Positions 9,977 through 11,285 of a stretch of DNA of 36,071 bases are shown here, in pieces. The notes under the pieces are model-generated. The model made no database searches. It was not told the origin of the DNA and saw only the letters and a list, made by a program, of their open reading frames with translations. The first letter of the stretch is position 1. Each line of letters starts with the position of its first letter. This DNA comes from Actinomycetota bacterium. Lineage in GTDB: Bacteria > Actinomycetota > Actinomycetes > Actinomycetales > Microbacteriaceae. Location of the stretch: the NCBI GenBank assembly GCA_005778835.1, contig SXMG01000128.1:1-36071 (forward strand), given 5' to 3'. The position numbers and the translations under genes were made by a program.

Positions 9977-10912
9977 CTAGAAGAGCGTCGCGCCGAGCAG
10001 CCGGTCGAGCATGCCGCGGCCGAGGGCGCGCTCGGCGGCGTGACCGCGCGCCTCGCCGCGCACGAGCAGCTCGAGGCCCCGCGTCGCCGCAATGGCGCGC
10101 AGCGCGAGCTCGTCTCGCTCGGTCGGAATGCGGCCGTAGCCGTGCAGGAAGGCCGCCCGCAGCCACGGCTCGTCGCGCCACGGCCCGTACTCGAGCCACA
10201 CCAGGTCGGTGATGCGCGGCTCGAAGCGCACCTGGCTGAAGTCGATAAGGCGCACGCGCCCACCGGGGTCGATGATCCAGTGGCGGGGCTCGAAGCGCCC
10301 GTGCACGGGCACGTGGTCGAACTCGCCGAGGTCCATGGCCGCGACGATGCACTCGCGTGCTCGGGCGCGCTCGTCGGCGAGCCGCTGGCCGCGCGCGTCC
10401 GCGGGGTCGCTGCCGTCGCCCCAGAGCTTCTCGGCCGCGACGCTCCAGCGCTCGAACTCGGCGGCGATCGACGGGCCGAAGAGCGCGTGCCGGCGGGGCG
10501 GCTCGGCATCGTGCAGCCGGCGCAGCAGGTCGCCCGCGCGCTGGTGGATGTCGGCGTCGCGCTCGTGCGGCGTGCCCGCGGCGGCCTCACCGAGTAGCCG
10601 CGACAGCGCGAGCAGGCGCAGTGCCGGGTCGCTGAGGGAGACGCGAGGGGCATCTCCGCCGAGCGCCACGGCGTACTGCTGCAGAGCTGTCGATTCGCGG
10701 TGGTGGGGCGCAGCATCCCGATGCCACTTGACGACCGCCTGCTCACCGCCCCGTGTCATGACGTGCAGCACGCGCGACGCGCGGTCGGCGCCCCAGTGCT
10801 CGTCGACCACGTCGACGGGGCCGAGGGTGCGATGCACGCGGTCGAGCACTTCGGCGTCGCTCGCCAGGCGCGCGCGGGCGTCGGCGGTCACGGCATCAGC
10901 GGCGATGCTCAT
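9977..10912 (-). CDS. Aminoglycoside-phosphotransferase-like (APH fold) kinase
   Basis: FDHVPVHGRFEPRHWIIDPGGRVRLIDFSQVRFEPRITDLVWLEYGPW: APH-like catalytic loop and DFG-like segment; SD AAGGAGGG. Confidence 0.85.
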   Translation of the reverse strand: MSIAADAVTADARARLASDAEVLDRVHRTLGPVDVVDEHWGADRASRVLHVMTRGGEQAVVKWHRDAAPHHRESTALQQYAVALGGDAPRVSLSDPALRLLALSRLLGEAAAGTPHERDADIHQRAGDLLRRLHDAEPPRRHALFGPSIAAEFERWSVAAEKLWGDGSDPADARGQRLADERARARECIVAAMDLGEFDHVPVHGRFEPRHWIIDPGGRVRLIDFSQVRFEPRITDLVWLEYGPWRDEPWLRAAFLHGYGRIPTERDELALRAIAATRGLELLVRGEARGHAAERALGRGMLDRLLGATLF

Positions 10913-10945: not shown

Positions 10946-10983
10946 GAAACCCCGGCCCGCCTTCATCGGCGGTCCGGGGTTTC
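10946..10983 (-). terminator. GC-rich hairpin GAAACCCCGG...CCGGGGTTTC downstream of the 27-aa peptide gene
   Basis: 10-bp perfect outer stem plus inner CCGCC/GGCGG; lies between the peptide stop and the APH start. Confidence 0.8.
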
Positions 10984-11022: not shown

Positions 11023-11106
11023 CTACTGGCAGCTCTCGCACTGCAGCATGTCCATCGGGTCGACGGGCACGGCGTAGCCACCGATGGTCTCGTTGTCGTT
11101 GTCCAT
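11023..11106 (-). CDS. 27-aa peptide MDNDNETIGGYAVPVDPMDMLQCESCQ (absent from ORF track because of length)
   Basis: ATG 11106, stop TAG at 11023-11025; SD AAGGAGG at 11113-11119 spaced 6 nt from ATG; canonical promoter and terminator flank it. Confidence 0.75.
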   Translation of the reverse strand: MDNDNETIGGYAVPVDPMDMLQCESCQ

Positions 11107-11155
11107 GTCGGACCTCCTTCTACTGAATTCTCCGCCCCCGGCGGCTAGGGGTCTC

Positions 11156-11185
11156 ACTATATACATGGAATGACACCGATGTCAT
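11156..11185 (-). promoter_or_regulatory. Sigma70-like promoter: -35 ATGACA (11180-11185), 18-bp spacer, -10 TATAGT (11156-11161)
   Basis: 5/6 matches in each hexamer; 18-bp spacer; drives the 27-aa peptide gene. Confidence 0.7.
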
Positions 11186-11188
11186 TCC
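11167..11188. promoter_or_regulatory. Candidate operator GGAATGACA-CCGA-TGTCATTCC overlapping the -35 and spacer
   Basis: 9-bp perfect arms with a 4-nt centre, directly on the promoter. Confidence 0.75.
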
Positions 11189-11285
11189 CCTAGATGTTGT
11201 GGTTTCGGCGTGTCGCGAACAATTCTGCGAGTGCCTGGTCGCGGCCTGCTCGCAGCAGCAGCGCTCTAGGCTGAGCACGCGCCTC

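Follow-up and report, generated by a model that had tools for sequence, protein, structure and literature searches.

A 27-residue peptide of Microbacteriaceae as a probable detached redox tail of class I ribonucleotide reductase

Introduction

In class I ribonucleotide reductases (RNRs) a pair of active-site cysteines is oxidised at each turnover and is re-reduced by a C-terminal cysteine pair. The small CxxC electron donors of RNR, NrdH, glutaredoxin and thioredoxin, are folded domains of about 75–110 amino acids. In phage Aeh1 the class I alpha subunit, NrdA, reportedly occurs in more than one chain, its catalytic core having been split by a mobile element. Of 2022 class I RNR sequences, 1737 carry a C-terminal CXXC (PMC9531940). 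Pseudomonas aeruginosa has a split class II RNR in which active-site re-reduction falls to a chain of its own, NrdJb, which is required in vivo (PMC4520616).

The locus considered here lies in a stretch of 36,071 nucleotides (the window; contig SXMG01000128.1) from an actinomycetote of the family Microbacteriaceae and carries an open reading frame (ORF) for a peptide of 27 amino acids. The peptide resembles the C-terminal tail of NrdA (R1) in its homologous motif with a CxxC(Q) end and in its expected role in active-site disulfide re-reduction, and it differs in being a separate product, usually in at least two copies of which at least one is unlinked to nrdA, and in being also phage- and plasmid-borne. 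As with NrdJb, a catalytic subunit without a tail would depend on a separate polypeptide for C-terminal cysteines and thiol-disulfide exchange; NrdJb, however, is a class II component, is larger and is encoded adjacent to its partner gene, no dispersed or phage copies are described for it there, and no homology is claimed. As in the split NrdA of Aeh1, a class I alpha subunit is divided between chains, although here it is the redox tail that is detached and not the core that is split. Like NrdH, glutaredoxin and thioredoxin it is a small CxxC product but it shows no homology to them and would stand between these donors and the active site. Detached class I tails, dispersed copies and phage-borne tails were not described in the literature searched, a coverage that mostly excludes subscription journals.

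The peptide gene and its conservation

A first-pass annotation of the window had described a micropeptide gene with its own promoter, palindromic operator, ribosome-binding site and terminator. Direct reading placed the ORF, AAGGAGG, -35, 18-bp spacer, -10, palindrome and hairpin all at the positions claimed, and they are listed below with the elements added by comparison with relatives.

9977–10912, reverse strand: APH-like kinase, a weak match to PF04655; neighbour of the tail gene in Microcella and almost nowhere else
10946–10983, reverse strand: GC-rich hairpin 3' of the ORF, a probable terminator without a U-tract; similar hairpins follow orthologues
11023–11106, reverse strand: ORF, with its stop, for the 27-aa detached NrdA redox tail MDNDNETIGGYAVPVDPMDMLQCESCQ; read directly
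11113–11119, reverse strand: Shine-Dalgarno sequence AAGGAGG, 6 nt before the ATG; an AGGAGG-like site is retained in orthologues
11154–11169, reverse strand: NrdR box 2, TCCATGTATATAGTGA, over the -10; its centre lies 33 bp from that of box 1
11156–11161, reverse strand: -10 element TATAGT
11167–11188, no strand assigned: palindrome GGAATGACA-N4-TGTCATTCC, between the NrdR boxes; perfect in 21 of 49 orthologues
11180–11185, reverse strand: -35 element ATGACA, with an 18-bp spacer to the -10
11187–11202, reverse strand: NrdR box 1, CCACAACATCTAGGGG, abutting the -35; paired box in 49 of 49 orthologous promoters and in nrdA promoters
11207–11215, reverse strand: conserved CGACACGCC element, next to NrdR box 1 and common to nrdA promoters

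On folding, the hairpin region gave z = -4.8 and none of 200 shuffles was equally stable; no U-tract follows it.

The peptide was sought in 40 related genomes, of which 24 were sampled mates from the genus of the window genome, Microcella (Yonghaparkia included). It is present at 85–100% identity in the window genome and in 23 of the 24 genus mates, the exception (G020) being a genome that is 75% complete. In these genomes it is nearly always accompanied by a second copy, 63–82% identical to the window peptide. For 24 orthologous coding sequences the mean dN/dS was 0.18 (mean dN 0.034, mean dS 0.19); 14 codons were invariant, 6 showed synonymous change only and 7 an amino acid change. The occurrence of the gene is well beyond chance, and the claim that this is a genuine micropeptide gene, with its own regulated promoter and under purifying selection, is upheld.

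Homology to the C-terminus of NrdA

No match was obtained when Pfam and NCBIfam were searched with the 27-aa peptide, and the first-pass annotation had recognised no family for it. The tail peptides share the motif Y-x-VP-x-DPMD-x-L-x-C(E/D)SCQ, with the CxxC retained in every tail examined, and one-piece NrdA proteins in other families of the order end with the same motif (e.g., ...EMVGGVACPVDPMERLQCESCQ, from a protein whose sequence matches solved structures of the RNR large subunit). Since the motif forms the very C-terminus of one-piece NrdA, the window peptide is the detached redox-active tail of that protein and, by this homology and its CxxC ending, the peptide family is assigned to the C-terminal tail of class I RNR subunit alpha. 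In a phylum sample of 397 genomes there was one other motif match, within a 909-residue frame that is presumably a one-piece NrdA. The tail is a separate ORF, not a covalent part of NrdA, at every Microbacteriaceae locus examined, and the corresponding split NrdA passes the cut-offs of TIGR02506 and PRK06539 (the NrdE_NrdA model being over its cut-off). Sequence comparison indicates that Microbacteriaceae NrdA has lost its CxxC tail, which is encoded by a short ORF between nrdA and nrdB, by an unlinked gene, or by both.

Three earlier suggestions, a RiPP precursor, a regulatory leader peptide or a small RNA, drew on the small size, the CxxC and GG motifs, the strong promoter, the hairpin and the adjacent kinase gene. 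Taken together they now seem exceedingly unlikely. Conservation extends beyond the RNA to the peptide itself, the reverse of what a small RNA with a conserved hairpin or palindrome would show, and the peptide matches the end of one-piece NrdA. The kinase linkage is kept within the genus but, of 26 orthologous loci in other genera, 25 have no such kinase nearby, the conserved linkage to a modifying enzyme expected for a RiPP is thus not seen, and other genera keep the peptide with a different downstream gene. The RiPP, leader and kinase-partnership proposals were rejected on NrdA-tail homology and synteny. Of the further idea of a Cys-pair metal- or redox-responsive peptide, a probably redox-active cysteine pair survives while a sensor role finds no support.

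Promoters and NrdR boxes

The regions upstream of stand-alone tail genes and of nrdA share a common layout consisting of CGACACGCC, CACWASATNTAG, about 20 bp and TATATAGTG. This promoter block occurs exactly once per genome in 25 of 26 genus genomes, with no occurrence of a reversed control pattern, and lies upstream of the tail ORF in all 24 comparable genus genomes.

The NrdR consensus is acaCwAtATaTwGtgt. Box pairs were scored against it over 32 positions per pair, and a pair was found in all 49 stand-alone tail promoters with scores of 21–25, an imperfect consensus match; random pieces of the window had a mean score of 13.8 and about 0.3% of them reached 22, probably those over the box site itself. 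Box centres are 33 bp apart in 48 of the stand-alone promoters and 32 bp in the other, and 32 bp apart in 32 of 36 nrdA promoters; one genome (G052) has a near-perfect NrdR box within a 32-bp pair. An NrdR gene is present in 30 of 30 genomes tested. The pairs of 16-bp boxes overlie the promoters with spacers of 16–17 bp, within the measured NrdR binding range of 14–17 bp (PMC12051234). In the window, the -10 lies within box 2 and the -35 directly adjoins box 1, which fits the placement expected for a repressor site.

The palindrome is present in the window as originally described but does not hold as the main conserved operator: its left arm, which includes the -35, occurs in 43 of 49 orthologous promoters whereas it is perfect in only 21, and it was rejected in that role. 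On present evidence the main conserved operator is the predicted NrdR-box pair around it, and the tail gene and the enzyme are apparently under the same control sites.

Linked tails and NrdA in the Microbacteriaceae

The second tail copy is located exactly between nrdA and nrdB. The nrdA product ends in ...RKGFGFGG.., its stop codon usually overlaps the ATG of the linked tail (TGATG or TAATG), and nrdB (MGILGTGIQEGLLLKPVTYKWAMDLYDQAV...) follows the tail. Variant tails occur at L110 (G170), one ending in ...DPMDDLNCEACE and another in ...DPIEGSQCDSCQQAASTG.

The same 150 family genomes were scored for NrdA (E below 1e-40) and for tails, the two lists being matched by hand. Tail matches were found in all 65 genomes with the tail-less type of NrdA and none in 84 of the 85 genomes lacking it, which carry only a roughly 24–29% identical NrdA relative, probably class Ib NrdE. 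The exception is G167, whose only RNR is NrdE-like and which gave one weak tail match.

The overlap with the nrdA stop might suggest that the linked tail is fused to NrdA by frameshifting or readthrough, with the unlinked copy left as a vestige or a minor spare. Counted from the nrdA stop, linked tails mostly start at an offset of 2 modulo 3; the value is 0 in L029, L065 and L114 and 1 in L117, and TAA, TGA and TAG are all in use as nrdA stops. Offsets in three frames and all three stops point to separate initiation and disfavour a fusion product; moreover, the unlinked copies are under purifying selection and have their own conserved promoter, and some genomes have unlinked tails only. Overall, we rate this explanation as very improbable and favour a separately initiated tail, with initiation at the linked copies probably coupled to nrdA translation.

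Genomes with unlinked tails only

In four genomes (G088, G150, G052 and G164) nrdB directly follows nrdA with no tail ORF between, and their NrdA proteins have zero cysteines beyond the core; those of G088 and G150 have four cysteines in the whole protein, 225, 439, 443 and 454, all at conserved core positions. A single RNR large-subunit gene is present in each of G088, G150 and G052, and G164 has a second one. Unlinked tails of the window type are present in G088, G164 and G150, the last having a second unlinked tail, and G052 has a diverged one. Split NrdA keeps the active-site cysteines in LSNCF, NLCTEI and VCNLA, as expected of a partner; in the L152 NrdA the LSNCF pattern is unmatched, yet Cys225 is present. 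A tail-less NrdA accompanied only by unlinked tails implies that the peptide serves NrdA in trans, unless the enzyme needs no tail, and the peptide very probably does work in trans.

Phage, plasmid and extra chromosomal copies

Tail ORFs are present in Clavibacter phages CN1A (MNNDNEYTVPIDPMDELICEGCQ) and CMP1 (MGDGEYTVPQDPMDEFQCDSCQ), in Pontimonas phage phiPsal1, by match, and in a phage that bears the label Pseudanabaena phage Pan2 and whose host is doubtful; with so short a query, their tblastn E-values are weak. Others lie on Clavibacter, Leifsonia and Gryllotalpicola plasmids (L138–L143). Most phage and plasmid tails are unannotated or "hypothetical"; one 33-aa plasmid tail goes under the wrong name of "ribonucleotide-diphosphate reductase subunit beta". 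The Clavibacter plasmid tails adjoin genes for an ArdC-like ssDNA-binding protein and a single-stranded DNA-binding protein.

At least 112 IMG/VR contigs matched a DNA pattern built on the motif, and none matched its reversed form. Tails are free ORFs in all of the 80 contigs examined (L242–L321), with no nrdA within 900 bases upstream, and sampled neighbours include genes for terminase, a DNA polymerase exonuclease subunit, holin and endolysin. The phage tails (L134–L137, L242–L321) have about 22–35 codons and several lie in or near lysis or DNA-replication genes.

Extra chromosomal tails without NrdR boxes also occur (L128 in G022, L120–L122 in G076, L115–L119 in G087, L123–L127 in G153, and L036, L037 and L042), up to six per genome, and the proximity of an integrase to the G022 copy suggests an origin from a mobile element. 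No convincing NrdR boxes were found before phage, plasmid or extra chromosomal tail copies. The RNR tail could be an exchangeable mobile subunit, such that phage and plasmid tails outside NrdR control would maintain or increase dNTP synthesis in the host while infection or transfer is under way, with tails of differing origin competing for one NrdA; we see the chances for and against this scenario as evenly balanced.

Proposed mechanism

It is highly likely, in our assessment, that the window gene encodes a detached C-terminal redox tail of class I NrdA acting in trans. Support at the sequence level comprises the NrdA-tail homology, the split, the co-occurrence, the purifying selection, the promoter layout and the unlinked-only genomes; from these we infer translation, docking, electron transfer and NrdR binding. 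The family NrdA retains its active-site cysteines and has given up the CxxC tail for disulfide re-reduction. Class I tail chemistry, together with the NrdJb precedent (PMC4520616), leads us to propose docking by the Y-VP-DPMD segment and electron shuttling by the CxxC: the 27-aa peptide would dock on NrdA, its C23 and C26 would reduce the active-site disulfide, and a thioredoxin- or NrdH-type protein would re-reduce the peptide. At plentiful dNTPs NrdR would repress the tail promoter jointly with the nrdA operon. An AdoCbl-dependent NrdJ partner and NrdJb homology, which would mark a split class II system, are both lacking and the partner is NrdA with NrdB; by analogy the Microbacteriaceae tail is best viewed as a class I counterpart of NrdJb in its working, and not as a member of the NrdJb family.

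Three considerations weigh against this model, namely that 22–50 amino acids offer little surface for tight docking, that genomes holding both linked and unlinked copies show no evident division of labour between them, and that the NrdR boxes fit their consensus imperfectly. The free tail might instead be mainly a regulator, vying for the docking site on NrdA or sequestering reductant, with NrdA re-reduced by another route such as direct reduction by a small redoxin. Several tail copies per genome, some with divergent N-termini, and the phage and plasmid copies would accord with regulation, but the CxxC kept in every tail examined, the retention of exactly this peptide in genomes whose sole RNR is a tail-less NrdA, and an nrdA-like promoter layout that fits a subunit better than an inhibitor all make a mainly regulatory role improbable.

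Implications

An otherwise unexplained micropeptide thus probably belongs to an essential enzyme as a subunit, and may rank with the smallest subunits known. Of the class I RNRs that seemingly have no C-terminal CXXC, some may be accounted for by detached tails, which also offer a natural system in which the electron step from tail to active site can be added or removed at will. Such tails further represent a gene of phages and plasmids, some 22–50 codons long, that has been overlooked because annotation misses or misnames it.
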